From Amphibalanus amphitrite (lineage: Eukaryota; Arthropoda; Thecostraca; Balanomorpha; Balanidae), in NCBI RefSeq assembly GCF_019059575.1, contig NW_024881829.1, positions 62,001 to 126,000 of the forward strand: a DNA stretch of 64,000 bases, given 5' to 3'. This document shows positions 24,751 through 56,129 of the stretch, piece by piece. Position 1 is the first letter of the stretch. Each line of letters starts with the position of its first letter. A program made the translations under genes and the position numbers. The notes under the pieces were generated by a model that was not told the DNA's origin, did no database searches, and saw only the letters and a program-made list of their open reading frames with translations.

Positions 24751-24757
24751 GATTGTA

Positions 24758-27639: not shown

Positions 27640-28503
27640 GATATCGCTCCGCGCCGCCGTTTTTGGCATACCTGTTCGTGCATCTTTTCTGCACATGTTG
27701 TGAAAATTTCAGACCCAGGTCACCTTAGGTCAGGTCACCAGGTCACGCCAAGTGACCTCACCTCAGAAAAAATAAGAATGCTCGTCATAGCTACACCGAT
27801 AGATCGATTGCCTTGAAACTTTCAGCGATTGATAAGAGCAACATTATCTATAAAATGTATATCTCGGAATTTTGATATCGGTGACCTAAGGTCAGGTCAT
27901 TTTTGCGACCTCTCCATTATAAGTCAATGGGAGAAAATTGAAAAGCGTCTGTTTTCCACGAACGCTATTCTAGACACTCTCAAACATCGAGATGTAGATA
28001 AAATGGACACACTGAACCGGAAAATGGCAACTGTGACCCCTCGTTATGTCCCCGAGGTCATCTCAGGTTACGAACAGATTCTAACAGTTTTTCGCTAATA
28101 ACTTCTAATAGAGACGTGCTAGAACGCTGAAAACGCCTTAGATGTGTTCGGCTCGACGTTGCAGATCGACTGATATGCAACATGACCTTTTCCGGTCAGG
28201 GCATGACCTTGACCTGAGGTCAAATTTTCAAGTTGACCTTTCAAGGTCAAATCATAGTTCATTCGACGCGTCTCGACGAGAGGAACACGATGGTGGCAAA
28301 AGTAATGTCGTGGCTCTTTTGAGTCAAAAGTTATTGCCGAAAAACGTTTTTCGTAAAAACGGCTATTTTTGGAGTTTTTGCCCTCTGGAGGCTAAACCGT
28401 TGACCTGAGGTCAAATCTGAGAACATTATTCAGAAAGGTCTGTAAAAGGGCTATCGAATGCGCTTTTCCGCGGCGCTGTAGCTCTATCGGTTCCCGAGAT
28501 AGC
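27640..28503 (+). repeat. AGGTCA-rich unit, left part, split by the giant LTR element
   Basis: The sequence runs through CAGACCCAGGTCACC, TGACCTAAGGTCAGG, ATTATAAGTCAATGGGAGAAAA and CATGACCTTGACCTGAGGTC. It breaks at 28,503 and continues at 50,693. A homologous uninterrupted copy lies at about 52,080-53,060, which shows the break is an insertion. Confidence 0.75.
28500..28503. other. Target-site duplication, left (TAGC)
   Basis: TAGC directly precedes the TG of the left LTR and is repeated directly after the CA of the right LTR (50,689-50,692). Four-base duplications are usual for Ty3/gypsy integrases. Confidence 0.85.
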
Positions 28504-29410
28504 TGTAGCGGGGTTTCGCGGCGTTGCGGGGCTAACCGGGCAGTGTCTTCTGGTTGAGATAGAGAGCAAGAGAGGTGCTCCGTCGGTGCGCTCCTAAAAG
28601 CCCTTCTCAGTGTCCAGCCCCTCGCGAACCCGTTCCGACTCTGACTCTATCTTTCCGGGGCGATCAATCATCGGAAACACATAGGCCAGGGTTTAGGAAT
28701 GGGAGGAGTGATAACTGATAACCCATTACCCCTGATCACCTTGAAATAAAATATCAACTGTACTTAATAAAAGTCTTAACTCGCAACCAACAGCGCCCTT
28801 CCTAGCTTGAGGGTCATTCTCCCACCAGATATATATCAATCATTCGTCCATTTGCCCATCCCCTTTCAACCCTGTCATTCGTCCACTTATACCTCGTAAT
28901 TTACCAGAGTTGACCATCTCCGGTCCCTCCCCTTTTTCCTAACTTCCCCCGGTGGTGCTAAGGCGTGCGCAAGTCGTTATTGAGTCATTGGCCTTAAATT
29001 TCAGTAACCGTTATCCCTTCATAACCACAATGCTCCGTACATCAGACAAACGCTTCATAATGCTCACGCTACACGAATAGAATATACGAACCACCACAGA
29101 TTTCGGCACTCCGCCCTTGAATTTCGCGACTTATAGCGGGTCCAAGACCATGCCGAACTACCTACACACAAATAATAAACACACACGCACGCAGGTTGTT
29201 GAGCGAACAATGGACTTACAGCATGGGCCGGTAAACCTTTGCAGCAACGTACGCAGCCCTTGTCTTACTGCCACTCACGTGTGGACCTGCCTTCTGCTGC
29301 CAGTGGTCAGTCAGCATCTCTAACACACTCCAGCCCACGGTTCCGGAGCTAGAGCTCGCAGGGCACTCAGTAGCCCGGGCTTTCCGCGGCGGACGTATCT
29401 AAAATTTGAA

Positions 29411-29513
29411 AGCCGGGTTGGGTAACTAAAGTCCGTCCGTGATACTAATGACCGCATCTCGCACCAGCCATAGTTCAGGGTTTCCGGGCCAACCCGGCGA
29501 CCTAAAAAAGGGT
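29411..29513 (-). repeat. LTR-internal hairpin repeat a (3' LTR)
   Basis: A roughly 100-bp block begins GCCGGGTTGGGTAACTAAAG and ends CCGGGCCAACCCGGC, so its two ends can pair as a GC-rich stem. A diverged copy lies about 545 bp away at 29,956-30,054. Function unknown. Confidence 0.6.
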
Positions 29514-29955
29514 TAGCTCTCGTCGGCTAACTACAAAGACAACACGCGTCTTCCACGCACGCAGGTCCACTCGGGGACGTCCTGCACTCAACACACATCG
29601 TCGACTACCAGCACATAGGTGTCCAAAACCCTATCTATCCGTGGCTGGTAGTTAAGCTGTCGTCACAGACCTATTCGAAAGGACCAGAGCATGGCCGGAG
29701 CTACTCGACTGACTGCGGGTGGCCAGCACCGTCTGACTGCGATCACCCGACTCGAATGCTCGGTATCTAATGTTCACCCCCCCGTCTTGCGGCATTATAC
29801 GTTCCTTCGCGGGGCATTACTCTTCCGGCGGCATACGATTCCCTCGCTAAGACGCCCGGGGTCCTAACCACCTCCGAAACTATCTATGTCGCTCTTCAAA
29901 TGACGTCCCGCGCCGACCACTTGAGGGACCGATAGCGGGCCTACCTATCTTTTTA

Positions 29956-30054
29956 AAACCGGGCTGGGTAACTAAGGTCCATCCGTGATACTGATGACCG
30001 CATCTCGCTCCAGTCATAGTTCAGGGCTTCCGGGCCAACCCGGCAGCCTAAAAT
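29956..30054 (-). repeat. LTR-internal hairpin repeat b (3' LTR)
   Basis: This is the second copy of the roughly 100-bp block, with the same pairing ends (ACCGGGCTGGGTAACTAAGG and GGGCCAACCCGG) and several substitutions. The matching pair in the 5' LTR is at 45,083-45,185 and 45,628-45,726. Confidence 0.6.
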
Positions 30055-30624
30055 CTGCCCAGCCTCCGAGGCTGTTAATCCAAGACGGAACACCGTTATC
30101 TCGCGGCGGCCCACCCGCCGATACACATCCCAGGCGGCGGCCCACGTGACCTTAATTATCACCCAGGCCTACCCTGGGCCGGAGCAATCGGGCCACTGGT
30201 CCCGTGCCCCGCTAGCCAGAGGTTAGACAGACTACAGCCCGTCGTCCCCTCCGAGCCAGGACCCGAGGCTGACCGGGTAACATTTCTTGAAACCCTCCTC
30301 GGCGGTCTGCGCCCGACTCGCCTTCATCCTCACATTTAATTTCGCGACTTATTGCACGTATCCAGGGCTTACTCAATCGAGGCCTACTATTTAGTGGGGT
30401 CTATTCGAGCTGAGCGTCATTAAGAAAATCCTATTTATCTACGTGTACAGTCTTCTTCCCTTTCACTCGCGTCTCATCTCCCTCCTAACCCGTAGCCGCG
30501 TCGGTGGATTCTCCACGCACAGGGGCGTGACGTGCATCATCTATCTCCCCGGTTCCATTCCTTGCAGTGTCTATGTAGAATAAAATTACATATATTTCGG
30601 GTGCGGCAAAGTCTATGCGCGTTC

Positions 30625-32062
30625 CTTGTATTCGGACCGTTGGATTGGATGGAGCGCCAGGAATTCCGCTGACGCATTATATTGATGGAAACCGGACGGT
30701 GGTACGGTAGGAATAGGATAATAGCAGCCAGAGCACTCTCCAGCATAGGTAAGGTAAGGAGGTCCTGCGTGTTCTGTGCGTGCTGCTTGTAATCGGACCA
30801 TCGAATAAAGTGGAGCGCCAGGAATTCCGCTGACGCGTAATAGTTATGGGAACAGGACAATGGTACGGTAGGAATGGATAATAACAGCCAGAGCACTCTC
30901 CAGCATAGGTAAGGTAAGGAGGTCTTGCGTGTTCTGTGCGTGCTGCTTGTAATCGGACCATCGGATAAAGTGGAGCGCCAGGAATTCCGCTGACGCGTAA
31001 TAGTTATGGGAACAGGACCATGGTACGGTAGGAATAGGATAATACAGCCAGAGCACTCTCCAGCATAGGTAAGGTAAGGAGGTCCTGCGTGTTCTGTGCG
31101 TGCTGCTTGTAATCGGACCATCGAATAAAGTGGAGCGCCAGGAATTCCGCTGACGCGTAATAGTTATGGCAACGGGACAATGGTACGGTAGGAATAGGAT
31201 AATACAGCCAGAGCACTCTCCAGCATAGGTAAGGTAAGGAGGTCCTGCGTGTTCTGTGCGTGCTGCTTGTAGTCGGACCATCGGATGAAGTGGAGCGCCA
31301 GGAATTCCGCTGACGCGTAATAGTTATGGGAACAGGACAATGGTACGGTAGGAATAGGATAATAACAGCCAGAGCACTCTCCAGCATAGGTAAGGTAAGG
31401 AGGTCCTGCGTGTTCTGTGCGTGCTGCTTGTAATCGGACCATCGGATAAAGTGGAGCGCCAGGAATTCCGCTGACGCGTAATAGTTATGGAAACAGGACA
31501 ATGGTACGGTAGGAATAGGATAATACAGCCAGAGCACTCTCCAGCATAGGTAAGGTAAGGAGGTCCTGCGTGTTCTGTGCGTGCTGCTTGTAATCGGACC
31601 ATCGGATAAAGTGGAGCGCCAGGAATTCCGCTGACGCGTAATAGTTATGGAAACAGGACAATGGTATGGTAGGAATAGGATAATAACAGCCAGAGCACTC
31701 TCCAGCATAGGTAAGGTAAGGAGGTCCTGCGTGTTCTGTGCGTGCTGCTTGTAATCGGACCATCGGATAAAGTGGAGCGCCAGGAATTCCGCTGACGCGT
31801 AATAGTTATGGAAACAGGACAATGGTACGGTAGGAATAGGATAAATACAGCCAGAGCACTCTCCAGCATAGGTAAGGTAAGGAGGTCCTGCGTGTTCTGT
31901 GCGTGCTGCTTGTAATCGGACCATCGGATAAAGTGGAGCGCCAGGAATTCCGCTGACGCGTAATAGTTATGGAAACAGGACAATGGTACGGTAGGAATAG
32001 GATAATACAGCCAGAGCACTCTCCAGCATAGGTAAGGTAAGGAGGTCCTGCGTGTTCTGTAC
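30625..32062 (-). repeat. Tandem array of nine 160-bp units (3' LTR)
   Basis: GGAATTCCGCTGACGC recurs at 30,660, 30,821, 30,981, 31,141, 31,301, 31,462, 31,622, 31,783 and 31,944, so the period is 160-161 bp. The outermost unit at the left is the most diverged. Each unit also holds TAGGTAAGGTAAGGAGGTCC. Because 160 is not a multiple of three, long frames across the array change frame from unit to unit and are not a protein. Tandem blocks in LTRs are often enhancers in retroviruses; that role is inference here. Confidence 0.92.
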
Positions 32063-32354
32063 ATGTGGATGTGTGCGCGTGTTAACATGTATGAGTGCGC
32101 GGAAGCTTGATGACCATCTAAAACCTTAGTTCTCTTACACGACTTAACGTGGCCGCTACGCCCCCCCTTTCCAATCCGCCCGGTGTGGTTATTCAGAGGG
32201 TGCCCTGGGGCGGCACCCTGAGCCCGCCCGTCCCCATTGGTGGGCGCCTTCATACTGGCCGGCCGCGTCGCCTTCCCGGGCCAATACTGGGCCCGCTCGG
32301 TCCCGTCCACCAATGAATTTGTCCGACTGTGAATCTCTCTCTGGAATGGATGAG

Positions 32355-32390
32355 TTATAAGAATCTCTCGGGTCGGGTCACATCATTGTA
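32355..32390 (+). promoter_or_regulatory. Possible plus-strand core promoter for the LTR gene
   Basis: TTATAAG (32,355-32,361) lies about 28 nt before an initiator-like TCATTG (32,383-32,388). That would give a leader of about 20 nt before the ATG at 32,406. The match is modest. The equivalent in the other LTR is at 48,027-48,062. Confidence 0.35.
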
Positions 32391-32405
32391 CCATTTCGTC
32401 TCGTG

Positions 32406-33460
32406 ATGGCATATTCAGTACCTACTGGTGAAGCTCCGGCCGCCCCGCCCGTGCTGGATATCGCCGTCCTTTGTGACGAGCGGGGCCGGCTGCGATGGGT
32501 ACCGGAGCTCATCCTAGGGGTCGACCTGAGGTCCCTGGAGGACCCAGAATTCCGGGCCATCTTAGCAAGACGGGTTCGGCGCCTTCAGATCCAGGTGCAC
32601 CCCGACCGACACTCCGGCGACGGTACTCTATCGAGGTGAGTCATGATAATCACTGCTTGTTTATTTTCCCCCTCCCTCTCTATGTCCATTATGCTTATCG
32701 GTAGTTTGTTCGCATTCATTCTTTGTATCAATTCGATGTTCTAATTGAACCAAGTGTTGCATTCTAGTCTAGTGCCCTATGCTAACCCCCCCCCCCCCCC
32801 TTTTTTGGTCTGTCTGCCTACAGGATCGTTAACATATGCGCGACGGTTCTGCGAGACCACGGCGCAGAATACGCCCGCTGGGCAGCAAAGCAGGACGGGC
32901 CGGCCTCAATGGAGGTGTTGCGGGCCGCCCTCCTGCTTCCTCCGCCCTTCCGGGACCTGCCCGAACCCGCCCGCACACGCCTCGCCGACCGAGCCGATGA
33001 GTTGGGCGCCAGCCTCCTATCGGCAGAAACGGCCATCAAGGCGGAGCGGCGGCGGGCTCGGGAGGCCAAAGGCGAGGCCTTAGCGGCTCGCCTCGATGCT
33101 GCCGACGCGGAGGCCGCCCTGAGGGCCGCAGAGCGTCGGGCGGGGGCGGAAATCGACCTCCTCCAAGCACGCATCGTGGAGCTGGAGGCCCGAATCGATA
33201 CCAAGGAGGCGGTCGTGTGCCGGCGGATCGCGGAGCTGGAGGCCGCCCTTGACTCCGCCGAGGCCGGGACTGGGAGGGCTCGGGCCCAGGTCTCAGGACT
33301 GGAGGCCCGGGTCACCCAGCTGACCGCTGAGTTAGCGGCGTGCCGGGGCATAATACCGGAGCCAGTCCGCTGGTGTTTGTCGGCAGTAGCCGATGGGCGT
33401 CCGCTGACGCACAATTTGCGCCGTACGGCACGGAAGGTATTAAATAAATCAGCTGACTGA
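32406..33460 (+). CDS. LTR-encoded J-domain-like coiled-coil protein, two exons (3' LTR copy)
   Basis: Exon 1 is 32,406-32,635 and exon 2 is 32,824-33,460. The 188-nt intron has donor AG|GTGAGT, a GCTAAC branch-point match, a long C/T tract and acceptor CCTACAG. Splicing joins the frames in register (230 + 637 nt = 289 codons) to give 288 residues. Residues about 31-96 resemble a J domain: an ELILGVD helix start, basic helix II (RRVRRLQIQV), an HPDR loop at 65-68, and helix III ending RDHGAEYARW. The intron falls just after the HPD loop. Residues about 126-247 are a long Ala/Glu/Arg coiled coil, and 248-288 a basic tail. The start ATG has purine at -3 and G at +4. A TTATAAG lies 50 nt upstream, and an AATAAA overlaps the last codons. 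The gene is antisense to gag-pol-env. J domains stimulate Hsp70 ATPase; a role in recruiting host Hsp70 is inference. The GC-rich third positions support coding. Confidence 0.75.
32636..32823 (+). other. Spliceosomal intron of the LTR gene (3' LTR)
   Basis: The donor GTGAGT follows AG. A TGCTAAC branch-point-like heptamer at about 32,780 is followed by a 15-C, 6-T tract and TCTGTCTGCCTACAG. Without splicing, exon 1 ends at a TGA that spans the donor. Both LTRs keep all these signals. Confidence 0.8.
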
Positions 33461-33480
33461 GCGATCCTTCTGTGTTTAGT
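33443..33480 (+). terminator. Poly(A) signal overlapping the end of the LTR gene
   Basis: AATAAA at 33,443-33,448 lies within the last codons of the frame, with a GT-rich CTGTGTTTAGTT about 20 nt later. This spacing matches a cleavage/polyadenylation site. The same arrangement is at 49,113-49,150. Confidence 0.45.
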
Positions 33481-34060
33481 TGACGAGCGTGCGTGAGCCG
33501 CGATACGCCCTCCCATTTAGCATCCGAGTCTCCAGTGATAAATAGATTGTGGTATTTCTGCGATTTATTTACAAGCTCCCACAATCGAACCCAATTAAAT
33601 CAGTCGGCACTGATAACCCATTCACGGCAGACATTGGATACTCAACGTCGGGGGATTCAGCTCGTCTAAACCCCCACACGATCGAACCGCTCGGAGCCGC
33701 GACCCTACACATTGAATCGGCCCGGGGACGTATCCGCGGGGCGGTCAGGAATTCACTACTGACCCTACACACAAACACTTTCCCTTTCACTTGGGTCGGA
33801 CGGCCCGCCGTCTGGCGCGCTCTCCCTCGCCTCCCCTCCCCACATATCTATCCCTCCCTCCGGGGACGCCCCGGTGGGAAACATGGGTCAGCTCACAAGA
33901 GGGAGGGAGGGTAGGTTATTATGAGAGATGAACGGGGGCGGGCATTATAGCGGGTGGACTGGGAATGGCCGTCTGTGCTCCGAGAATGACTGACCTCCTT
34001 GAAGAGAGTAGGCTGCTGCTGTGCCGTCGGCTGCTGCGAGTAACACTCTCGTCGTCGATG
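33481..34060. other. LTR interior, no gene recognised (3' LTR)
   Basis: Downstream of the spliced gene I see only short frames on both strands with no family resemblance. The equivalent interval in the other LTR is 49,151-49,730. Confidence 0.4.
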
Positions 34061-34099
34061 TGGACCACCCCAGATTGCCCTTTTTTTCTTCTTGCTCCA

Positions 34100-34222
34100 G
34101 TTTAAATACCTCTGGTGACGTCATTTCGGCGCTCCAGTTTGGTGGGCGGAGTAAATTTGGTGAAGGGACATAGGTACCGCCCTCGAACCAATGCGATGTC
34201 TTCTTCGGCTTGAAGCACCGCC
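34100..34222 (-). promoter_or_regulatory. Minus-strand promoter cluster (3' LTR): CCAAT, GC box, CRE, TATA
   Basis: Reading the minus strand toward gag, the order is an inverted CCAAT box (34,198-34,202), a CCGCCC GC box (34,144-34,149), a full palindromic CRE TGACGTCA (34,116-34,123) and TATA-like GGTATTTAAAC (34,100-34,110). Order and spacing are those of a pol II core promoter driving the retroviral genes. This would put the transcript start near 34,075 and leave about 0.94 kb of U3 and 5.5 kb of R/U5. Confidence 0.6.
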
Positions 34223-35018
34223 CCAATTCCTCGTGATTTGATGGCGGTGGCTGTGCATCCCCTCAGGGTTTAGTATTGACGGTCCTCTCAGTAGCCCTGG
34301 GGCGAGCCACTCTCTTTTTCCAGATTCCTGGTTAATTGTATCGGAAATGTGGGTCGTTTCTCCGTTCCCCTTGTTTTGGTGCTCCGCTTAAGTCCAGGTC
34401 GGCTGCTGCGCCCTTTATCTTGTTTGGCTTCTGTCAGTAATGGTCCGCTTGATAAATGTCCCCATCGGGGTGCCGAGCGTGGGACCAAGTTCTGTTTTCC
34501 AAAGGTTCAACTGATAAATGACTCGCCACTGGCAGGTGGTGTGCTCCGGCATGCTATTTGTCGACTTCAAATCCTGGTTCTCACGAATTGGGGGTGGTAT
34601 TCCACAGCGGAGCCTTGTTGTCAAAGCCGGCTGCACCCCTTGTGTACGCCGGTCTGCGACGCAGATAGGTATCGCCGCCGATTTAGCCGACTGGCCGTGT
34701 CTGTGCGGTGCGCCAGATGGTTTTGAGGCCGACGGTCAGGGGGTCAAATGACTTTGTTTGCGTGCACAGCCCGGCTCTCCATTCATCGGACGACATGGCT
34801 GATCGGCATCCGCGTTCCCGGTCCCAGCCTCTGCCTATTTTCGTCCGAGTCGGGTGCAGCTGCTGTTTTTGGGCCGGCCTGAGTGCGCCGGCGTCCGGCT
34901 AACCCCGGCGCGCGGTCGGCCGTCCTGCGATCTGGTCAATGATTGCACTTTTGCTTGTGGCACGGCTTGCTTGTTCAAATTGAAGAAACAAATAAAAATG
35001 TGGCGCATCTGCGTTACA

Positions 35019-35994: not shown

Positions 35995-38043
35995 TTAGAG
36001 AAGGGCGGTCAGCTCATCGTGTTGTTTTTTCAGCTTAGCGAGGGCGATTTCGAGTTGCGCCGTCTTCTCCATGCGACATTGCAGGTCCGTTGTGATTACT
36101 TCCAGGTGGTGGATCCGGGATTGGAGTTGTGATATCTGGTTGGGATCGGGCAGGAGAGGGGCAGATGGGATGGGCAGGTCGGGATTTTGGCGGGGTTGGA
36201 TGATGGTACTCTGTGATCGTCTGTTTCGGCTGCAGTTGTAGGCAAGCAGGCCGAGCACCCCAAGCAGGGCGACTCCTCCGAGGGTTAGGGAGGTGTGGTT
36301 GATTAACTTGAAGGATATCCCTTCTGTGTCCGGGGATTCGTTCCAGTTCTTCATTGTTTCTTTCAGCTCTGTCAGCATTGAATCTTCTCGACCCGTCTCT
36401 TTGGCTGCTTCAAGAATCTCATTTAGTTCTGTTTGGTTTATCCTTCCTTTCGTAGAAATGTAGTTTTGGAAAGTACTTGGTTTCAGTTCAATCTTGAAGT
36501 GAGTCATGTCCGTCAATTTCATTTCAGCTGGGGTGTCGTCTTGCCTTTTCAGATGAGCTGGGATGATGTAATGGTCTCCCATCGCAGTGCAGCTGGCCGG
36601 AAGGGAGAAAATACCTGTTCCTTGTAACCGGAACCCTTTGGTTGGCATTCCTTCTCCGGCACATTGCATAGAGAATAACTCCTCGGTTGGTAATACATAA
36701 AGCCATTTGTTGTCCGCTACGGGGTATATTTGCGGTTTTGGTTTTATCATTTTCCGCACGCATTCTTCCTCAACCTTGCTTTCTTCGTCCCGGAAGGCAT
36801 GGTATAGACAACCCTCTCTCTTCTCCTTGATGAGAGGTGTAAGCTTGTTGCACATCGTTCGTCCACCGACGTGGCGGCAACGGCTAATTTCTTCTGCCGA
36901 CAATTCAATGTGCAGGCGCTGGTCCTTCGATATTGCGAAATATGGGTAGGGGACCTGGGCTTCTAGGGCAATTGAGGAATTGGAAAAGTGTGTAGGGATG
37001 GAGTTGACCTTAAAGAGATGGTATTGTCCATACGGCCGGTATTGGAGCGGGATTTGGATATGCACTTCCCAGCCGTCTTCAAGCGCCACCGCGGAAATTT
37101 CTAAGAACTTGTAGATGTTTGCCGGTGTTTCTGAGAGCGAGATGGCTGGCACCCACCCATCAGGCAGGTGATTAGTGATGGCCGCCATGGTGGTCTTCAG
37201 CGTTGCGGGCGACAAAATGGCCGGCGTTACCACTCCTTGTTGAGTGTGCGCCATCGCCCGGCCGATCTGCCTCACTTCGTGGTGAAAAGTCATCACAGCG
37301 GCGCTTGCGGTACGGATGGCAGAGGAGATCGCGTGGCCGAAATCGAGCTCTCGACGAATATTCCGCATGGTAATGTGGTCGGCGTCCCTCGTAACTGTAA
37401 AGAGTGACTCCAGCTCGATGGCCTTTCTGGCTAGCGTCACTAAGTGTTTATCGTTGTTCTTCTGACGCTTTGAAATTTCTCCGATTAAGGTGGTTTGTAG
37501 TTCAGCAATATGATGAAGTTTTCCCACGCCGGCCGTGATTCCTTCGATTTGTTTGTGCAGTTTTTGGACGTCAGTTTCCGTGGCGGTGCCAAACAACCAT
37601 TTTAAACCGTCGCCAAGGGCGTTAATCAGTCCCCTGGCTCGGCGACTGAGTCTCAATTCCGTCCTGAGTTCCTGGATTTCAACTTCACCAGCCCTTAGCT
37701 CAGCCTCCATCCAGGTACGCTCTTGATTCCACATGGCTTTCATTTCTCTGATAAATTGTTGGGTTCTCTGTTCTTCGGCCGTCTGGTTCGCTTCAAATTC
37801 GCCGCTGTTCTCTAAAGCCCTATCAATTTTGGTGAATTGCTCCCGGATTTGATTTGATTGCCTTTCGACGTCCTCTTGCTGAAATCTCACTATTGCTGTC
37901 CAGGTTCCGGTGGCCAACACCAATGGTCCCTTCGGCTGGAATAAAATTCCGCTTCGCAGGCCGGGCGTGACGTCATTTTCTTCCGATCCCTTGGTGCGGC
38001 TGGCTGCGACCCAGAGCAGCAGGAGGGCCAGTCGTCCGGACAT
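35995..38043 (-). CDS. env: Envelope fusion-type glycoprotein (errantivirus/baculovirus F-like)
   Basis: The frame is open from 38,061; the first ATG is at 38,043 and begins a hydrophobic signal peptide (MSGRLALLLLWVAA), giving about 682 residues. A basic furin-type site SRRAR at about residues 133-137 is followed at once by GLINALGDGLKWLFGT, the arrangement of baculovirus F and gypsy Env fusion proteins. Heptad-rich segments flank it. One transmembrane helix (LTLGGVALLGVLGLLAY) lies about 80 residues from the end. The cytoplasmic tail is long and itself coiled-coil-like. Such proteins are cleaved by furin and mediate membrane fusion. A splice acceptor lies 9 nt before the ATG, so expression from a spliced RNA is likely. 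No stop or frameshift was seen. Confidence 0.88.
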   Translation of the reverse strand: MSGRLALLLLWVAASRTKGSEENDVTPGLRSGILFQPKGPLVLATGTWTAIVRFQQEDVERQSNQIREQFTKIDRALENSGEFEANQTAEEQRTQQFIREMKAMWNQERTWMEAELRAGEVEIQELRTELRLSRRARGLINALGDGLKWLFGTATETDVQKLHKQIEGITAGVGKLHHIAELQTTLIGEISKRQKNNDKHLVTLARKAIELESLFTVTRDADHITMRNIRRELDFGHAISSAIRTASAAVMTFHHEVRQIGRAMAHTQQGVVTPAILSPATLKTTMAAITNHLPDGWVPAISLSETPANIYKFLEISAVALEDGWEVHIQIPLQYRPYGQYHLFKVNSIPTHFSNSSIALEAQVPYPYFAISKDQRLHIELSAEEISRCRHVGGRTMCNKLTPLIKEKREGCLYHAFRDEESKVEEECVRKMIKPKPQIYPVADNKWLYVLPTEELFSMQCAGEGMPTKGFRLQGTGIFSLPASCTAMGDHYIIPAHLKRQDDTPAEMKLTDMTHFKIELKPSTFQNYISTKGRINQTELNEILEAAKETGREDSMLTELKETMKNWNESPDTEGISFKLINHTSLTLGGVALLGVLGLLAYNCSRNRRSQSTIIQPRQNPDLPIPSAPLLPDPNQISQLQSRIHHLEVITTDLQCRMEKTAQLEIALAKLKKQHDELTALL

Positions 38044-38092: not shown

Positions 38093-41000
38093 TCACTGGT
38101 CTCGCTGTTCCCGCCTGAGTCGGATTCGATCGGACCGTCTCAGGATGGGTGTCTCAAAATTATTGGCCCTTCTCCTGCCCTGTCCCGTCCCACAAATGCC
38201 TGGGGAGGGTTGGGATCTCCTGCTGTAAGGACGGGGCTCGGTGGTGCAGTCTTGAGGCGGTGGGTGTGGTAACTGGTCGGGTATAGGAGCGGCCGGAGTT
38301 CCAAAATGTCCTCCCCCGTCTCCTCCGTCACTCTCTCCTTCCTCCGCACTCCCCGAGCTGGTCGATACGGGGCTATGATCGAGTGGGCCGGGTCGGAACT
38401 TGCTCCTTTGGAGCCTGAGCCAGTTGTCCACTTGCTGCTCAGCGTTGAGAGGGTTCTTAGCGCCGTCATGTTGTTGGAGGCCCTCGGGTAGAGCTTCCTT
38501 TGGCCAGACGTATTCGGGTATTTGTCGTTTTAGGCGATTGACGTGAACTCGGTGGATCCTCCCACGTCTGTTTGGGTGTTCTATGTGGTAGTTCAACGGC
38601 CCTATGACTTTAATGACTCTGTATCCTGGCTTCCAGGGCGGGTGGAGCTTTTTGGTTTGTCCCTCAGTCACTCTTTCATCCAGGAGGAGGACTTCGTCTC
38701 CCACCTGGAAGTGTCGCTCTCGACTTCTCTTGTCGTGATGGTGTTTTTGCTTGTCTCGAGCGTCCTTCAGGTGGGATTGCACGTCGGCGAATGCCTGATG
38801 CATGTGCGTGACCATGCTGGGCTTGATGCGCTCCACTTCTGAGGTGGGATCTGGAAAATCCAGCCGTCGTCTCTTCAGCTGAAGGTCTAGTGGCGCGCGA
38901 CAGGGCCTCCCGAACATTAAGTAGAACGGCGTCTCACCTGTGCTCTCCTGGGCTGCAGCTCGGTAGGCATGCAGGAGGTACGGGAGGTATTGATCCCAGT
39001 CACGCTGGTGTTCTTCCACACAACCCCTCAGCATCGAGGCTAATGTCCGGTTGAACCTTTCGCAGAGTCCGTCAAATTGCGGATGATACGGGGTCGTGAA
39101 TAGGTGAGCTGCTTGAATGAGCCTGCACATCTCCTTTAGGAGGTTGGATGTAAAGTTCGTTCCATTGTCGGTGATGATACGCTCTGGGAGGCCGTATTCC
39201 AGAAACTTTTCCATGAGCACTCCTGCAGTAGTTTCGGCTGTTTGGTCTTTGGTGGCTTCTGCGAGGACATACCGTGTCAGATAGTCCGTGAGTACCACTA
39301 CGTACTTTTTGCCGGATTTTGTCTGAGGCAGGGGCCCGAGTACATCGACGGCTACCGTATGCCACGCCCCAAGTGGTTGAGGCATGTCTCCAAGTGGTGC
39401 CTGTTGCTTTCTTCCGCGGTCCTTGGTTTGGCACGTTGGGCAGCCTGCAATGTAGTTGGTGCAGATGGTGAACATGTTCTTGAAGAAGAAGCTACGTTTC
39501 AGGTTGCCGAGTGTTTTCCCTGCCTTGAGGTGTCCTGCGTGGGCGTCTTGTACTGCTGACTTGATTAGAACTTGCGGCAACACCACCTGCCATCTCTCTT
39601 CCTTGTTTTTGGTGCTGCTAACCCGCTCTAAGACGTCATCTTCGGTGATTCGGAATTGGTGTTTCAGTGCCCACGAAGGCAGTTCTCCTCCCTGTTCTAC
39701 GGCTTTTCTCAGCTGCTGGCAGTCGTGGTCATTCCTTTGGAGGTCAGCGAGGGCCCGTCTCCCCAGTCCCGTTGGGGTGTTTTTGACCGCTCCGTCTCCT
39801 TCGCAGTGTCCCGGGTTCTGGACATCTTCTGCCGCCGGGGTCTCTTCCCCTTGATCCTGCTGGGCCTGTCTTCGTGTGATCACTGCCATCACACCCAGCA
39901 TATCTTCCGGGGCTTCTCCTGTTCCTCCATCTTCTTTGCAGTTCCTTTCTTGCTCTTGCTTCGTTTCATCTTCCTTTCTTCTGTGTCGCCTCTCTCCTTC
40001 GTACATTCGTGATAGGAAGTCCGCATTCCGGTGCTGCTTTCCGGGTTTGTATGTTATCTTGAGGTCGTACTCTAGCAGCGCCATACGCCACCGCTGAAGT
40101 CTTGGATTCGGGTTTTTCAGGTCCTGTAGCCATTTCAGGGCCCAGTGGTCAGTAACCACCTCCGTTGGACGTCCCAGGATATATTCTCTGAACTGGCGAG
40201 TGGCCCACACAAGAGCGAGACACTCAAGCTCACAGGCCGAGTAGTTCTCCTCCAGACGGGTGGTACGTCTTGAAGCGTAGCTGATGACCCTCTCCTTGGG
40301 GTCTCCTTCGTGCTGCTGTCCGAGCACCGCACCCAACCCTGTCGAGCTCCCATCTGTCATAAGGATGAATGGCTTTGAGAAATCTGGGAGCGCCAGCACC
40401 GGTTCGCTAGTGAGAGCGTCCTTCAGGTCTGCAAACGCGTCCTGCTCCTTGGACCCCCATTGGAAGGGTGTGTTCTGCTTGGTTAGCTCTGTGAGAGCCC
40501 AGGCCCGCCTGCTGAAGTTCTTCACGAAACTTCGGTAATAGGAAGCCATGCCCAGAAAGCTGCGCACTTCTTTGACGGTGGAGGGGGCGTCCAGGTCGCA
40601 GATCTTTTTGATGTTCTCGGGGCCTGGGCGGAGCTGTCCCGGTGAGATGAGGTGACCAAGGTACTGGACCTGCTCCTTTGCGAGTACGCATTTAGATGGC
40701 TTTAGTTTGATACCGGCTTGCTTAAGGCGCTCGAAGACGAGGCGCAGGTGCTCCAGGTGATCTTCAAAGTTGTTGGAGAAGACGATGATGTCGTCAATGA
40801 AACAGTGACAGAATTTTCCTGTGTATCCTGAGAGCACGTGAGCCATGAGACGCTGATAGGTAGCCGGCGCGTTGCGGAGCCCATACGGCACACGGAGGAA
40901 GTGGTAAAGGCCAAGAAAACACCGAAATGCTGTCTTTGGACGGTCCTCTTCTGCTACACTGACTTGCCAGTAGCCTTGCTGGCAATCGAGACAACTGAAA

Positions 41001-42958
41001 ATCTGGGCCCCGCCGAGTGTGTCAAAGATCTCGCTTCTGGCCAGTGGGAGAGGGTAATGGTCTGCCTTGGTAACTTCGTTGAGGCCTCGGTAATCGACGC
41101 AAAACCGAGTTTCTCCAGACTTCTTTGGCACTAGGACCACCCCTGCGGCGTAGGGTGATATCGATGGTTCAATAACCCCTTTTTCGAGCATGTCTCGTAT
41201 CTCTTTTTCGATGAATTCTCTTTCTGTATGGGCCACCCTGTAGGCTGGCCGTCTCACTGGTACATCTGTGGTTAGTTCGATTCGATGTTGAATAAGGTCA
41301 CACGCTCCGAGTTCCCCTTTTTGTGCAAAACATTGGTGAAATTCTTCCACTAGCTGTTTGAGCGCCTGTTCCTGGCCGGGAGAAACAGGACCGATGGTTA
41401 TTGTCCCTCCTTTTCCGTCATCTGCTGCCGCTGTGGGGAGCTCTTCTAGTTCATCGGTGGTGTCTTCACCTGGTGCTCCGCTCTGAGGGATGCCATGGGC
41501 TGTTTCTCCTGATGGCGTGTCGGGTCGTTCAGATATATACAGTATATGTACACTCCCGATCGTTGATTCGTCATCTGTGAGGGTTGTCTGGCTGACCTCC
41601 TCTTCGTAGCTCGGCTGCCGCTCGGACCACTCTGTCTCGGTAGCATATGTGGCTCGCTCTCCGGAGCCGGTTCCTGCTTGTTGCTCCTGTAGAGCCTCCG
41701 TGCGGTCCACGATTTGTGTAGTACGGTTTTCTGACGACATTGCCTGTTTTGGTTTCGTTTCGCCTTGTTTCGTTGCATTTGGCGCTGTACCCGCTTGACA
41801 GGGCGCTGCTGCAGACTCCATTTGATTTATCTGGTAATCATTTTCCGAATTGTCGCAGATCTCGCGCTCCTCGTGGATTTCAATGGTAGTTTCCAGGGGC
41901 CCCGGCGGCTGATTTTCATCATTGGGTAGCCTATCTGTCTTGAGCAGCGTGCCCCGCTTCTCTTCTGGGGGTGGGGTTGTGTTGCTCTCATTGTATACGG
42001 GCGGCGACATGTTTCCGGCATCACTGGACGAGAGCGTCCTTCCTGGAGCGTTCTTGGGTGGTTGTATCGATTCTCGGGTCGGTGACTGGACTGCTGCTTC
42101 TGACTGATGGTGGTCTGTTATGCCGGGGCGTTCCGAGTCTGCACATGTGGGTGCGTGCGGCTCTTCATTCATTGTCTTCGAATCAAGAGGCGTTCCCGGT
42201 GCCCTGCTGACATCCTTCTCTGATTTCCCAGGGCAGCTCGTGTCACCCTCAGCTTCTTGAACCTGTTTTTTGGGGTCCACGACCTGCACGCCAGCGCACT
42301 CCTCTTCCCATCCTTCCGCTGTCCGTAAGGGTATTGGCCTGGAGTCCTCTAGCTGTACCGTCATAGTGGCCGGGTTGATCGTCAGGTTGTGTTTGCGGAT
42401 GAAGTCGAATCCAATGATAGCATCTTGGAGGATGTCGGGACAAATGTATGCTGGGTGCTTCCTGGCTGTGCCGGCAAAATCGAATTTCATTGTTGCTTCG
42501 TGGAGTATCGGTATCAGGTGTCCTGAGGCTGACTTCAGTCGTACCTCCACCGGTCGTCCTGTCGTGAGATGCTCGTGCTGCCGGACTAGTGCTGGGTTCA
42601 CTATGGTTACCATAGAGCCGGTATCAATTAGGACAAAGGCTTCAGTCCCCTCAATTTTGATGCGACAGGTGCATGTTGGTACAACGTTTGCTCCTTTGAC
42701 CTGGGCTGTACTTGTTGTTTCTCTGATGCCCTGCCGTTTTGGTGACGTTTCCAAAATCGCTGCTAGTTGAGTTGGTGTCGTTTCCGATGTCGAGTGGTTA
42801 GGTTCCGGGTGGTGGTTCGGATCTATTTGGGGGACTTTACCTTGCCTCATTGCCGACTGCCCCCCTCTTACAGTCGGCGATACCCGTTTCCCGACTGTGG
42901 GTACGTGGCGTGCGGGCAGTGCCTGCGGATATGTCCCATTTGACCGCACCCGTAGCAT
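38093..42958 (-). CDS. pol: Pol polyprotein: protease, reverse transcriptase, RNase H, integrase
   Basis: The 1621-codon frame overlaps gag by 91 nt in the -1 frame. Domains in order: aspartic protease (LIDTGSMV, about 110-117); RT about 555-745, with FCVDYRGLN near 621 and the catalytic FIDDIIVF near 721; RNase H starting with LMTDGSS near 868; integrase with an HHCC finger (HAGH near 1141, CPTC near 1175), catalytic Asp in VAVDVLG near 1205, DNGTNF near 1264 and Glu in CERFNR near 1300; then a GPY/F-like module (IGPLNYHI) near 1456. This order is Ty3/gypsy. An unusually long Pro/Glu/Ser/Thr-rich linker of about 300 residues separates PR and RT. Translation probably needs -1 frameshifting at 42,886-42,892. 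All catalytic residues I checked are present and there are no stops. Confidence 0.95.
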   Translation of the reverse strand: MLRVRSNGTYPQALPARHVPTVGKRVSPTVRGGQSAMRQGKVPQIDPNHHPEPNHSTSETTPTQLAAILETSPKRQGIRETTSTAQVKGANVVPTCTCRIKIEGTEAFVLIDTGSMVTIVNPALVRQHEHLTTGRPVEVRLKSASGHLIPILHEATMKFDFAGTARKHPAYICPDILQDAIIGFDFIRKHNLTINPATMTVQLEDSRPIPLRTAEGWEEECAGVQVVDPKKQVQEAEGDTSCPGKSEKDVSRAPGTPLDSKTMNEEPHAPTCADSERPGITDHHQSEAAVQSPTRESIQPPKNAPGRTLSSSDAGNMSPPVYNESNTTPPPEEKRGTLLKTDRLPNDENQPPGPLETTIEIHEEREICDNSENDYQINQMESAAAPCQAGTAPNATKQGETKPKQAMSSENRTTQIVDRTEALQEQQAGTGSGERATYATETEWSERQPSYEEEVSQTTLTDDESTIGSVHILYISERPDTPSGETAHGIPQSGAPGEDTTDELEELPTAAADDGKGGTITIGPVSPGQEQALKQLVEEFHQCFAQKGELGACDLIQHRIELTTDVPVRRPAYRVAHTEREFIEKEIRDMLEKGVIEPSISPYAAGVVLVPKKSGETRFCVDYRGLNEVTKADHYPLPLARSEIFDTLGGAQIFSCLDCQQGYWQVSVAEEDRPKTAFRCFLGLYHFLRVPYGLRNAPATYQRLMAHVLSGYTGKFCHCFIDDIIVFSNNFEDHLEHLRLVFERLKQAGIKLKPSKCVLAKEQVQYLGHLISPGQLRPGPENIKKICDLDAPSTVKEVRSFLGMASYYRSFVKNFSRRAWALTELTKQNTPFQWGSKEQDAFADLKDALTSEPVLALPDFSKPFILMTDGSSTGLGAVLGQQHEGDPKERVISYASRRTTRLEENYSACELECLALVWATRQFREYILGRPTEVVTDHWALKWLQDLKNPNPRLQRWRMALLEYDLKITYKPGKQHRNADFLSRMYEGERRHRRKEDETKQEQERNCKEDGGTGEAPEDMLGVMAVITRRQAQQDQGEETPAAEDVQNPGHCEGDGAVKNTPTGLGRRALADLQRNDHDCQQLRKAVEQGGELPSWALKHQFRITEDDVLERVSSTKNKEERWQVVLPQVLIKSAVQDAHAGHLKAGKTLGNLKRSFFFKNMFTICTNYIAGCPTCQTKDRGRKQQAPLGDMPQPLGAWHTVAVDVLGPLPQTKSGKKYVVVLTDYLTRYVLAEATKDQTAETTAGVLMEKFLEYGLPERIITDNGTNFTSNLLKEMCRLIQAAHLFTTPYHPQFDGLCERFNRTLASMLRGCVEEHQRDWDQYLPYLLHAYRAAAQESTGETPFYLMFGRPCRAPLDLQLKRRRLDFPDPTSEVERIKPSMVTHMHQAFADVQSHLKDARDKQKHHHDKRSRERHFQVGDEVLLLDERVTEGQTKKLHPPWKPGYRVIKVIGPLNYHIEHPNRRGRIHRVHVNRLKRQIPEYVWPKEALPEGLQQHDGAKNPLNAEQQVDNWLRLQRSKFRPGPLDHSPVSTSSGSAEEGESDGGDGGGHFGTPAAPIPDQLPHPPPQDCTTEPRPYSRRSQPSPGICGTGQGRRRANNFETPILRRSDRIRLRREQRDQ
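42852..42892 (-). promoter_or_regulatory. -1 ribosomal frameshift signal (GGGAAAC plus stem-loop)
   Basis: The slippery heptamer G GGA AAC (42,886-42,892) is in the gag zero frame. A 7-nt spacer (42,879-42,885) leads to an 8-bp GC-rich stem, GCCGACTG (42,871-42,878) with CAGTCGGC (42,852-42,859). The 11-nt loop contains the gag stop TAA. Heptamer, spacer length and stem match classical retroviral signals; GGGAAAC is used by some lentiviruses. The pol frame is indeed -1 relative to gag. Confidence 0.85.
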
Positions 42959-44070
42959 ATAAAGGGTTCGTTTCCCCTACCGCCGTCAAAATTCCTCCAG
43001 GCGGGCCCTGGACCCTGTCTGAATTCCTGGCGGGTCCACTCTTGCGTTCTTCCTGGTCGTCGGTTCGGCTGGGCACCTCGTGGTAGGGGGAGCTGTCTGT
43101 CGAAATGGTGGTCGCCGCGTCGCTGCCCACCGCCTCTTCGTGAGTTGTTATTTCTGTATGCCTGGCCTGATGTCCGTTGATGGTGGTGATGTTGGTCGCC
43201 TGGGCCATCGTATTCATCCTCGGATTCCGATGAACGCTCGTCGTTTGATTTCCGTTGGGTTGAATTGATGGAGTTGTCGGCTCTCTTGGTTGATTTGTCC
43301 TCTTTGGCTTTCTTCTTTTTTGCTTCCTCCCTAATCTCTAAAGCGGCCACGATCTGTTCTACTAGTCCAGGGTTAGTTGCTGCGGTCGGACCCGGGATAT
43401 CCTGCTTAAAGCAGCTAAGCACGGCTTCCTCTCGGTGGCTGTTCTCTACCGCCTCTTCTTCGGCGGCAGCTTTTACCGCATCGTCAAAAGTGCTGCACTT
43501 TTTCCGCCAGACCATTTGACGCAGGCTGCTTCGCAGCCCTCGGATAAAGTTTGATTTTCGCATAAAGTCGAGGAGCTTTTTCCTCGCTTCACTCGTTTTT
43601 TCCTCGCCGTTCCCTCCGTCAGCCGAATCAGCTTCTTCCCTTTCTGTTTTCAATGCGAGTCCTTCTGAGCCTACGGCGAGAATTGATAGTTTCCTTACGG
43701 TTTGGGCCCACTCCTGTACAGTTTTTCCTCCTTGCGTTGCCGTGTTTAGTAGGTACTGATGCCATTGTTCCTTCCCCGCGGTGTCATATCGTTCTTTGAG
43801 TGTTCTTTTCAGTTCTTCCCAGTTTGATATTTTACCTTCGTCTCTTAATTGTTCTGCAAATTCACCAGCTTCTCCCCTTAGCCTGAACAGTGCCGCTTTA
43901 AAGGTTTGCTCCTGGTTCCAACCGGCGAATTCCGCTGCTCTTTCAATCATTTGGATCCATTCGCTCAAGTCTTGTTGTCCGTCAAAATTGTCCACTGATC
44001 CGATTACTCGGTAGCGCTCCATTTCCTGGAAAAAAGATGTCCGAGTTACAACCTTACACTTCACTTTCAT
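42868..44070 (-). CDS. gag: Gag polyprotein with zinc knuckle
   Basis: The 400-codon frame starts at a true ATG (44,070); a second ATG at 44,022 (MERYRVIGS) would give 384 residues. The N-terminal half resembles the retrotransposon gag capsid domain (SEWIQMIERAAEFAGW and the LRGEAGEFA helix). The middle is Arg/Gly/His-rich. The C-terminus has a CCHC knuckle, CYGCGQMGHIRRHC, at about 372-385, the nucleocapsid RNA-binding module. Gag assembles the particle and packages RNA. The acceptor-like TCTTTTTTCCAG, 3 nt before the second ATG, suggests that a spliced message could start there. The frame ends inside the frameshift stem-loop. Confidence 0.9.
   Translation of the reverse strand: MKVKCKVVTRTSFFQEMERYRVIGSVDNFDGQQDLSEWIQMIERAAEFAGWNQEQTFKAALFRLRGEAGEFAEQLRDEGKISNWEELKRTLKERYDTAGKEQWHQYLLNTATQGGKTVQEWAQTVRKLSILAVGSEGLALKTEREEADSADGGNGEEKTSEARKKLLDFMRKSNFIRGLRSSLRQMVWRKKCSTFDDAVKAAAEEEAVENSHREEAVLSCFKQDIPGPTAATNPGLVEQIVAALEIREEAKKKKAKEDKSTKRADNSINSTQRKSNDERSSESEDEYDGPGDQHHHHQRTSGQAYRNNNSRRGGGQRRGDHHFDRQLPLPRGAQPNRRPGRTQEWTRQEFRQGPGPAWRNFDGGRGNEPFICYGCGQMGHIRRHCPHATYPQSGNGYRRL
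44022..44040 (-). promoter_or_regulatory. Splice-acceptor-like site at the internal gag ATG
   Basis: Minus-strand TCTTTTTTCCAG is followed by GAA and then ATGGAGCGC. The tract and CAG fit a 3' splice site. It could remove part of the very long leader if a donor exists upstream. Confidence 0.4.
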
Positions 44071-44151: not shown

Positions 44152-44171
44152 GCCCCACGTTGGGTACGCCA
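44152..44171 (-). other. Primer-binding site, tRNA-Lys-like
   Basis: Four bases (GATT) after the 5' LTR, the minus strand reads TGGCGTACCCAACGTGGGGC. It is complementary to the usual metazoan tRNA-Lys 3' end (TGGCGCCCAACGTGGGGC) except for two extra bases, TA, after TGGCG. Assignment to tRNA-Lys rests on family knowledge; a different tRNA could match better. Confidence 0.6.
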
Positions 44172-46296
44172 AATCTGTAGCGGGGTTTCGCGGCGTTGCG
44201 GGGCTAACCGGGCAGTGTCTTCTGGTTGAGATAGAGAGCAAGAGAGGTGCTCCGTCGGTGCGCTCCTAAAAGCCCTTCTCAGTGTCCAGCCCCTCGCGAA
44301 CCCGTTCCGACTCTGACTCTATCTTTCCGGGGCGATCAATCATCGGAAACACATAGGCCAGGGTTTAGGAATGGGAGGAGTGATAACTGATAACCCATTA
44401 CCCCTGATCACCTTGAAATAAAATATCAACTGTACTTAATAAAAGTCTTAACTCGCAACCAACAGCGCCCTTCCTAGCTTGAGGGTCATTCTCCCACCAG
44501 ATATATATCAATCATTCGTCCATTTGCCCATCCCCTTTCAACCCTGTCATTCGTCCACTTATACCTCGTAATTTACCAGAGTTGACCATCTCCGGTCCCT
44601 CCCCTTTTTCCTAACTTCCCCCGGTGGTGCTAAGGCGTGCGCAAGTCGTTATTGAGTCATTGGCCTTAAATTTCAGTAACCGTTATCCCTTCATAACCAC
44701 AATGCTCCGTACATCAGACAAACGCTTCATAATGCTCACGCTACACGAATAGAATATACGAACCACCACAGATTTCGGCACTCCGCCCTTGAATTTCGCG
44801 ACTTATAGCGGGTCCAAGACCATGCCGAACTACCTACACACAAATAATAAACACACACGCACGCAGGTTGTTGAGCGAACAATGGACTTACAGCATGGGC
44901 CGGTAAACCTTTGCAGCAACGTACGCAGCCCTTGTCTTACTGCCACTCACGTGTGGACCTGCCTTCTGCTGCCAGTGGTCAGTCAGCATCTCTAACACAC
45001 TCCAGCCCACGGTTCCGGAGCTAGAGCTCGCAGGGCACTCAGTAGCCCGGGCTTTCCGCGGCGGACGTATCTAAAATTTGAAAGCCGGGTTGGGTAACTA
45101 AAGTCCGTCCGTGATACTAATGACCGCATCTCGCACCAGCCATAGTTCAGGGTTTCCGGGCCAACCCGGCGACCTAAAAAAGGGTTAGCTCTCGTCGGCT
45201 AACTACAAAGACAACACGCGTCTTCCACGCACGCAGGTCCACTCGGGGACGTCCTGCACTCAACACACATCGTCGACTACCAGCACATAGGTGTCCAAAA
45301 CCCTATCTATCCGTGGCTGGTAGTTAAGCTGTCGTCACAGACCTATTCGAAAGGACCAGAGCATGGCCGGAGCTACTCGACTGACTGCGGGTGGCCAGCA
45401 CCGTCTGACTGCGATCACCCGACTCGAATGCTCGGTATCTAATGTTCACCCCCCCGTCTTGCGGCATTATACGTTCCTTCGCGGGGCATTACTCTTCCGG
45501 CGGCATACGATTCCCTCGCTAAGACGCCCGGGGTCCTAACCACCTCCGAAACTATCTATGTCGCTCTTCAAATGACGTCCCGCGCCGACCACTTGAGGGA
45601 CCGATAGCGGGCCTACCTATCTTTTTAAAACCGGGCTGGGTAACTAAGGTCCATCCGTGATACTGATGACCGCATCTCGCTCCAGTCATAGTTCAGGGCT
45701 TCCGGGCCAACCCGGCAGCCTAAAATCTGCCCAGCCTCCGAGGCTGTTAATCCAAGACGGAACACCGTTATCTCGCGGCGGCCCACCCGCCGATACACAT
45801 CCCAGGCGGCGGCCCACGTGACCTTAATTATCACCCAGGCCTACCCTGGGCCGGAGCAATCGGGCCACTGGTCCCGTGCCCCGCTAGCCAGAGGTTAGAC
45901 AGACTACAGCCCGTCGTCCCCTCCGAGCCAGGACCCGAGGCTGACCGGGTAACATTTCTTGAAACCCTCCTCGGCGGTCTGCGCCCGACTCGCCTTCATC
46001 CTCACATTTAATTTCGCGACTTATTGCACGTATCCAGGGCTTACTCAATCGAGGCCTACTATTTAGTGGGGTCTATTCGAGCTGAGCGTCATTAAGAAAA
46101 TCCTATTTATCTACGTGTACAGTCTTCTTCCCTTTCACTCGCGTCTCATCTCCCTCCTAACCCGTAGCCGCGTCGGTGGATTCTCCACGCACAGGGGCGT
46201 GACGTGCATCATCTATCTCCCCGGTTCCATTCCTTGCAGTGTCTATGTAGAATAAAATTACATATATTTCGGGTGCGGCAAAGTCTATGCGCGTTC

Positions 46297-47734: not shown

Positions 47735-48077
47735 ATGTGGATGTGTGCGCGTGTTAACATGTATGAGTGCGCGGAAGCTTGATGACCATCTAAAACCTTA
47801 GTTCTCTTACACGACTTAACGTGGCCGCTACGCCCCCCCTTTCCAATCCGCCCGGTGTGGTTATTCAGAGGGTGCCCTGGGGCGGCACCCTGAGCCCGCC
47901 CGTCCCCATTGGTGGGCGCCTTCATACTGGCCGGCCGCGTCGCCTTCCCGGGCCAATACTGGGCCCGCTCGGTCCCGTCCACCAATGAATTTGTCCGACT
48001 GTGAATCTCTCTCTGGAATGGATGAGTTATAAGAATCTCTCGGGTCGGGTCACATCATTGTACCATTTCGTCTCGTG

Positions 48078-49130: not shown

Positions 49131-49769
49131 GCGATCCTTCTGTGTTTAGTTGACGAGCGTGCGTGAGCCGCGATACGCCCTCCCATTTAGCATCCGAGTC
49201 TCCAGTGATAAATAGATTGTGGTATTTCTGCGATTTATTTACAAGCTCCCACAATCGAACCCAATTAAATCAGTCGGCACTGATAACCCATTCACGGCAG
49301 ACATTGGATACTCAACGTCGGGGGATTCAGCTCGTCTAAACCCCCACACGATCGAACCGCTCGGAGCCGCGACCCTACACATTGAATCGGCCCGGGGACG
49401 TATCCGCGGGGCGGTCAGGAATTCACTACTGACCCTACACACAAACACTTTCCCTTTCACTTGGGTCGGACGGCCCGCCGTCTGGCGCGCTCTCCCTCGC
49501 CTCCCCTCCCCACATATCTATCCCTCCCTCCGGGGACGCCCCGGTGGGAAACATGGGTCAGCTCACAAGAGGGAGGGAGGGTAGGTTATTATGAGAGATG
49601 AACGGGGGCGGGCATTATAGCGGGTGGACTGGGAATGGCCGTCTGTGCTCCGAGAATGACTGACCTCCTTGAAGAGAGTAGGCTGCTGCTGTGCCGTCGG
49701 CTGCTGCGAGTAACACTCTCGTCGTCGATGTGGACCACCCCAGATTGCCCTTTTTTTCTTCTTGCTCCA

Positions 49770-50688: not shown

Positions 50689-50692
50689 TAGC
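50689..50692. other. Target-site duplication, right (TAGC)
   Basis: This matches 28,500-28,503 exactly. Beyond it the interrupted host repeat resumes. Confidence 0.85.
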
Positions 50693-56121: not shown

Positions 56122-56129
56122 GTAAGCAG
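56122..56129. other. 8-bp target duplication of the hAT-like element (left)
   Basis: GTAAGCAG is repeated at 61,775-61,782. An 8-bp duplication is diagnostic of hAT-type transposition. Confidence 0.85.

Follow-up and report, generated by a model that had tools for sequence, protein, structure and literature searches.

A candidate spliced antisense gene with a J-like N-terminal part inside the long terminal repeats of a barnacle Ty3/gypsy provirus

The long terminal repeats (LTRs) of a provirus in the barnacle Amphibalanus amphitrite hold a split reading frame that runs opposite to gag, pol and env. This raises two questions: whether the frame is a genuine gene, and whether the N-terminal part of its product is a J domain. 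The window, which is the whole stretch of DNA that was analysed, is 64 kb long, and its host contig in the 807.5-Mb genome is labelled C332. The provirus in it is made up as follows, the target site duplication (TSD) and the sequence resembling a primer-binding site (PBS) being read from sequence.

28500..28503 (left) and 50689-50692 (right), no strand: TSD, TAGC
28504..35018, minus strand: 3' LTR, 6515 bp, TG..CA; the 5' end of the LTR is at 35018
30625..32060: tandem array in the LTR, 8.9 copies of a 160-bp unit, upstream of the antisense gene
35995..38043, minus strand: env, Baculo_F (PF12259), E 2.6e-27
38093..42958, minus strand: pol, with protease, reverse transcriptase (RT), RNase H and integrase
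42868..44070, minus strand: gag, 400 aa, with Retrotrans_gag and CCHC matches slightly below cutoffs
44152..44171, minus strand: PBS-like sequence starting TGGCG, 4 nt past the 5' LTR
44176..50688, minus strand: 5' LTR, 6513 bp, 99.95% identical to the 3' LTR

The order RT-RNase H-integrase, the TG..CA ends of the LTRs, the 4-bp TSD and the PBS-like sequence are all found as expected for Ty3/gypsy. Judging from domain content and ends, we assign the element to Ty3/gypsy (Metaviridae) and call it errantivirus-like. With errantiviruses and gypsy elements that have a baculovirus-like env it shares gag-pol-env, the Baculo_F env, TG..CA and the 4-bp TSD, a likeness of gene content and ends; it differs from them by its giant LTRs and the antisense gene. 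Between the two LTRs there is a single mismatch and one 2-nt gap, so the insertion is recent. The Troyka lineage was considered and rejected: Troyka has CG..CG ends, a 3-bp TSD and LTRs of 100–400 bp, according to part of PMC12440569, whereas the window element has TG..CA, a 4-bp TSD and 6.5-kb LTRs. An Rfam search of positions 28000-51000 gave 0 matches. By eye, GTAGTCGTCC-like repeats are abundant between env and the 3' LTR (35450-35930).

A preliminary description had placed a plus-strand gene in each 6.5-kb LTR, opposite gag-pol-env, with an AG|GTGAGT donor, a CTAAC branch point, a pyrimidine tract, a CAG acceptor and an in-frame join to 288 codons. All of these were found again: there are two LTR copies of the gene, gag, pol and env lie on the minus strand, and the spliced exons 1 and 2 join in frame to 288 aa. 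The product is 100% identical over 288 aa to the NCBI predicted protein LOC122388744 (P0001), and the splice sites of that model coincide exactly. The parts of the gene and the signals around it are the following.

32356..32361, plus strand: TATAAG, a TATA-like box 50 nt upstream of the ATG (motif only)
32406..32635, plus strand: exon 1, N-terminal segment and J-like helices I-II with HPDRHSGD
32636..32823, plus strand: intron, 188 nt, phase 2, GTGAGT...CTAAC...TACAG
32824..33460, plus strand: exon 2, J-like helix III, long helical rod and conserved RRTA near the C-terminus
33443..33448, plus strand: AATAAA of the antisense gene, within its last codons, in 4/4 LTR types
33564..33569, minus strand: AATAAA of the sense strand, convergent with the antisense AATAAA
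34102..34123, minus strand: CRE (TGACGTCA) and TATTTAA, likely the sense promoter (motif only), in 4/4 LTR types
48078..48307, plus strand: exon 1, second LTR copy
48494..49130, plus strand: exon 2, second LTR copy

The coding sequences of the two window copies are letter-identical, and the intron of the second is 2 nt shorter, within a C tract. Without splicing, a stop directly after exon 1 would give a 77-aa J-like product; two 80-aa reading frames from other sources (P0009 and P0010) have the same end point. The four LTR types compared were those of C332, C638, C134 and the part of C201 that was read. In all four, the sense and antisense AATAAA signals face each other at a spacing of 124–127 nt, and the sense AATAAA comes 554–560 nt downstream of the sense CRE-TATA motif. 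From these motifs we infer that R runs on the minus strand from about 34,075 to 33,550, which would place the antisense gene within U5, in a tail-to-tail arrangement with the genomic poly(A) signal. With a TATA-like pattern chosen after inspecting the sequences, all four LTR types have a box 42–50 nt upstream of the ATG: beside the TATAAG of C332, C638, C134 and C201 have TATATGG 42 nt upstream, C34 retains TATAAG, and C1731 and C803 have GATAAG at that position.

The DNA search of the barnacle's own genome with the antisense gene gave at least 22 matches. The gene is intact in 7/7 LTRs, which are both LTRs of three proviruses (C332, C201 and C638) and the solo LTR C134, and these seven encode three types of product with splice sites and position kept. 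Proviruses C638 and C201 also carry the gene antisense in both LTRs. Over the pieces read (gag, pol and part of env in C638; pol and env in C201), their proteins are close to those of the window element: gag is 99% identical in C638, where it was read, and in the two proviruses pol is 79–95% and env 98–99% identical. At C134 a single LTR stands between two GTAG copies, and the 9.9 kb read contain no gag, pol or env. Thirteen genomic copies of exon 1 were read, seven in the intact genes (two each in C332, C201 and C638, one in C134) and six in broken ones (C34 twice, C1731, C803, C80 and C17). Pieces of exon 2 without exon 1 (C946, C1211 and two more on C34) are outside these counts; the exon 2 of C1211 is near-complete, with 198 open codons and the acceptor kept. 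C34 has 1.79-kb repeats that are doubtful as LTRs, with no TG..CA ends and no gag, pol or env match.

The LTRs are also mosaics. Over the 76 codons of exon 1, no synonymous change separates C332 from C201, whereas dS in exon 2 is 0.97. Their near-identical patch extends from about 32,386 to 32,667, most of the adjoining 60-nt bins are 50–80% identical, and identity is back up to 92–98% past 33,526. Such a patch amid divergent flanks means that exon 1 was exchanged separately, by recombination between subfamilies. Outside about 30,700-33,500, the LTR of C638 matches that of C332 at 85–99% in most 200-nt bins, a bin close to the left end being at 73%; inside this region 54–66% of aligned positions agree, except in two exon-1 bins. 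From this pattern, the tandem repeats and exon 2 were exchanged or diverged as one block. The array of C638 (L033/L034) has a unit of about 136 bp by self-match offsets and occupies the same place as the 160-bp array of C332; the arrays are thus family-specific in unit and common in position.

Selection was judged by dN/dS rather than by survival of open frames, because databases mostly hold open frames, which favours intact relatives. For exon 1, 10 copies, of which two are partial, gave 45 pairs for comparison, and the rows of this and the following comparisons are not independent since the copies share history. The 24 pairs between two diverged groups gave dN/dS of 0.118–0.180 at dS of 1.2–1.8; among the remaining pairs, 13 gave 0.174–0.462 and 8 had no synonymous change. 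For exon 2 of the four intact copies, five pairs gave 0.282–0.405 and dN was 0 in the sixth. Over the first 85 codons of exon 2 in five copies including C1731 and C803, dN/dS was 0.154–0.373 in 9/10 pairs, and 0.768 for C1731/C803, which are near-identical and broken. C1211 (198 codons of exon 2) gave 0.167 against C332.

Along exon 2, codons 1-45, which hold the helix III part, gave dN/dS of 0.145 for both C332/C201 and C332/C134, and dN of 0 for C201/C134. For the same three pairs in the same order, the rod gave 0.454, 0.527 and 0.246, and the C-terminus 0.358, 0.449 and 0.235. In the bootstrap, the 95% intervals exclude 1 in all 11 comparisons; 2 of 2000 replicates reach 1 for a partial exon 1 of 55 codons, and 11 of 2000 for the C-terminus of 41 codons. 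These values show purifying selection on the antisense protein, strongest in its J-like part. The seven intact LTR copies, dN/dS well below 1 and conserved splice sites make the frame more than chance, and we take it to be a genuine antisense accessory gene borne in the LTR. A minus-strand reading frame of 232 aa over exon 2 was also considered as a gene and rejected, with three stops in C134 and a dN/dS of 0.47 (C332/C201).

Searches of about 5.8 billion database proteins, which required shared 5-residue words and, in two cases, scored the roughly 8000 best candidates, gave ten related proteins, P0001 included. P0001 is the product of the C332 gene and P0003 that of the C201 gene. P0009 (exon 1) and P0007 (exon 2), both on 2503-bp contigs, probably come from one contig. 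A profile of the gene family found no relative in viral and genome contig collections, and the lowest E in a PHROGs search with P0001, P0003 and P0004 was 0.015.

The preliminary description had aligned the head of the product with helices I to III of a J domain. The motif and the profile evidence support this in part. The head shares with DnaJ/Hsp40 class C proteins and HscB the pattern ILG(V)...basic helix II...HPDR.GD...VLRD and the predicted order of helices. HPD is kept in 13/13 genomic copies of exon 1, and V57, R58, R59, L60 and Q61 of basic helix II are invariant in 8/8 aligned rows; P0010, the relative from another source, has DPD in place of HPD and has lost the His. Against a purpose-built DnaJ profile, P0001 scored 11.1 bits, whereas the best of 2000 shuffles of residues 1-110 scored 7.6. 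UniRef independently gives P0004 the title 'J domain-containing protein'. Profile-profile alignment with DnaJ (hhalign) scored 28.9 with a first alignment (0/300 column shuffles as good) and 30.6 with a more varied one (P 2.8e-5 over 49 columns, from ILGV to LRDH; 0/200 shuffles as good). When HPDRHSGD was masked, P became 0.077 and 13/200 shuffles were as good; when this core was fixed in place, 2/200 were. Most of the profile-profile signal comes from the core.

No curated J model of Pfam or NCBIfam reaches its cutoff for the antisense protein or its relatives. In Pfam, P0001-P0007 have no DnaJ row up to E 10, the first 115 aa of P0001 have no row, and the N-terminal piece of P0004 has DUF3618 (E 0.0045) and no DnaJ row; for P0009 DnaJ is the best model, at E 0.16 and 12.5 bits versus a cutoff of 27.8. 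Because the Pfam DnaJ cutoff is not reached, the head is labelled J-like and is not assigned to the DnaJ/Hsp40 family. In NCBIfam, two of three queries have HscB as their best model (E 0.08 and 0.14, below cutoff), and TrbD ranks above HscB for the N-terminal piece of P0004. The first ranks taken by DnaJ and HscB, though below cutoff, favour the J reading. A PDB profile search ranked an unrelated protein (E 1.0) over DnaJ (E 1.7). Compared with DnaJ, the antisense protein has a longer loop between helix I and HPD and a shorter one between HPD and helix III. AlphaFold gave a mean pLDDT below 60 across the J-like part in both models, and the helices predicted at 47-62 and 74-98, which flank HPD, are of low confidence. 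With this low-pLDDT input, no J domain was recognised among the matches listed by Foldseek for two models (23 and 38) and by VIA for the first model (32); one Sec63 entry among them (2q0z, E 8.7) was not counted as evidence. On balance we regard a J domain in the N-terminal part as probable rather than proven.

The preliminary description had also read a 120-residue coiled coil after the head. Residues 124-249 are predicted to form a single helix, in which pLDDT reaches about 90 or more only past roughly residue 141. Heptad periodicity in the rod is not significant (3223/5000 shuffles as strong), so a coiled coil is likely rather than demonstrated.

As a whole, the evidence is best explained by an accessory gene with its own promoter that encodes a J-type co-chaperone, an explanation in which our confidence is slightly better than even. 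A TATA-type promoter belonging to the gene would drive transcription opposite to that of the genomic RNA, and the transcript would be spliced once and end at the poly(A) signal that faces the sense one. The product would be a J-type co-chaperone of the Hsp40 class C kind, in which basic helix II and the HPD loop recruit and fire host Hsp70, and the long helical rod and conserved basic tail hold a client or form oligomers. The likeliest clients would be Gag or Env of the element itself, or a host complex for silencing or import; Hsp70 would then act to remodel the client. Strong constraint on the J-like exon and helix III with weaker constraint on the rod may be what a constant Hsp70 partner and changing clients would produce, and the exchange of the J-like exon beside a diverging rod looks as if clients change while the Hsp70 contact stays constant. 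The fuller proposal stands at about even: an animal retroelement would encode its own J-type Hsp70 co-chaperone through an autonomous antisense LTR gene, its Hsp70-recruiting exon being an exchangeable cassette, and its client-binding rod and the tandem repeats turning over fast. Host Hsp40 proteins act in HIV nuclear import and gene expression, as described in passages of PMC7356129, which makes it plausible that an element would bring its own Hsp70 recruiter.

The strongest alternative, which we consider a serious possibility though a clearly lesser one, is that the antisense accessory protein is not a chaperone but a helical, basic-tailed regulator of transcription or RNA like HBZ or the Retand proteins, and that its HPD is convergent. 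The intact copies and the evidence of selection fit such a protein equally well, the J signal lies mostly in an 8-residue core and P0010 does without the His, and a long helix is predicted over most of the protein. In Retand elements, antisense genes for Smc-like and TRP28 proteins lie next to tandem repeats, according to parts of PMC11963269. However, selection peaks in the J-like segments, HPD is retained in 13/13 copies over a dS above 1, and Pfam gives P0001 no bZIP or TRP28 row up to E 10.

It is very unlikely that the frame is a host gene carried as a passenger of the LTR, or spread with LTRs, that does nothing for the element. The intron and the gene's own promoter-like motifs would suit this reading, as would decayed copies that lie without gag, pol or env of the family nearby (C1731, C803 and C34) or beside a pol fragment (C80). 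But the gene is intact with low dN/dS in all seven LTRs, both of each young provirus and the solo one, and the 10 proteins from the word-based search, some of them on short contigs, include no clear cellular homologue. Separately, C1731 (L039, L041, L042) and C803 (L040, L043, L044) have about 12.7 kb in common at about 99%, with flanks of about 88–97%; where read, the shared stretches hold a decayed gene copy and no gag, pol or env match of the window element's family.

Highly improbable, too, is an active antisense RNA that controls expression of the genomic RNA by pairing with its U5/leader, or that enters piRNA silencing, the protein being secondary. Judged by motifs, the gene does lie downstream of the likely sense R, so the genomic 5' leader would be complementary to it, and the poly(A) signals are convergent. 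An RNA function alone would not preserve a reading frame and is disfavoured for that reason: third codon positions vary more than first or second in 11/11 comparisons, dN/dS is below 1 with intervals that exclude 1, and the control frames of exon 2 (C332/C201) gave dN/dS of 1.01, 1.46, 1.19, 0.47 and 1.39. Chance reading frames with accidental splice motifs in GC-rich sequence (GC about 60% there, with the open 232-aa minus-strand frame overlapping exon 2) can practically be dismissed, since they are contradicted by dN/dS and its bootstrap, by the conservation of splice sites, signals and protein family, by the stops of the minus frame in C134, and by neutral simulations in which exon 2 was seldom stop-free (1/300 runs at 45% identity, 18/300 at 57% and 23/300 at 62%).

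The co-chaperone reading can be set beside several known systems. The sag gene of MMTV is an accessory gene in the LTR, in sense orientation, and encodes a superantigen; the barnacle gene is likewise housed in the LTR but is antisense. In polyomavirus T antigens the J domain lies in the first exon and is spliced on. The barnacle gene resembles this virus-encoded J domain in the N-terminal place of its J-like part, whereas T antigen is an early sense gene of a DNA virus with an experimentally supported J domain. HBZ of HTLV-1 has its coding part largely outside the LTR. It is a bZIP protein, whereas the barnacle gene has a J-like head and keeps both exons and its promoter-like and poly(A) motifs inside each LTR. 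In orientation and splice model the two match, antisense LTR transcription being predicted here from motifs.

Retroviral antisense genes include HTLV-1 HBZ, HIV-1 asp and APH-2, and HBZ, a spliced protein gene that starts in the 3' LTR, is like the barnacle gene antisense to gag-pol-env (parts of PMC10186651). The presence of a J domain in polyomavirus T antigens is indicated by reference titles in PMC7356129. Among plant LTR elements, antisense reading frames are described in sections of PMC7264820 and PMC11963269 for Grande (gene23), RIRE2 and Retand (TRP28/Smc). These Ty3/gypsy elements have, in those sections, conserved antisense accessory frames, in Retand often by tandem repeats and some of them Smc-like; they lie between pol and the 3' LTR, whereas the barnacle gene is inside the LTR of an animal element with an envelope and has a J-like head. 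The word 'intron' is absent from the main texts of both papers, and passages of PMC5408684 on rotifer LTR elements with extra reading frames hold no mention of DnaJ, chaperone or intron. The preliminary description knew of no retroelement that combines these features. Among the titles and abstract openings listed for searches of the open PMC literature (at most 20 of up to 267 papers each), there was no report of an intron-bearing antisense gene housed wholly in an LTR, of a retroelement protein with a J-like part, or of an antisense gene in a barnacle env element. The gene's locus names matched 0 papers.

Retroviral antisense accessory genes are few, and their coding status is hard to prove. 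The barnacle gene offers an intron, signal motifs of its own and a clear signature of selection across several proviruses of one genome. Its layout suggests that giant LTRs have room for an insulated gene whose tail meets the genomic poly(A) signal, and its history that single exons of LTR genes can be reshuffled. Should the head prove to be a J domain, retroelements, like polyomaviruses, would encode Hsp70 recruiters of their own, and there would be a defined, testable route into host chaperone use by an endogenous virus.

Elsewhere in the window, positions 28165-28414 and 52538-52786, which flank the provirus on either side, are 90% similar. LINE-type reading frames (endonuclease and reverse transcriptase) are present on the minus strand at 54405-63853. 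Long direct and inverted repeats at 305-2812, 14741-17669 and 20946-27580 are probably further mobile elements.
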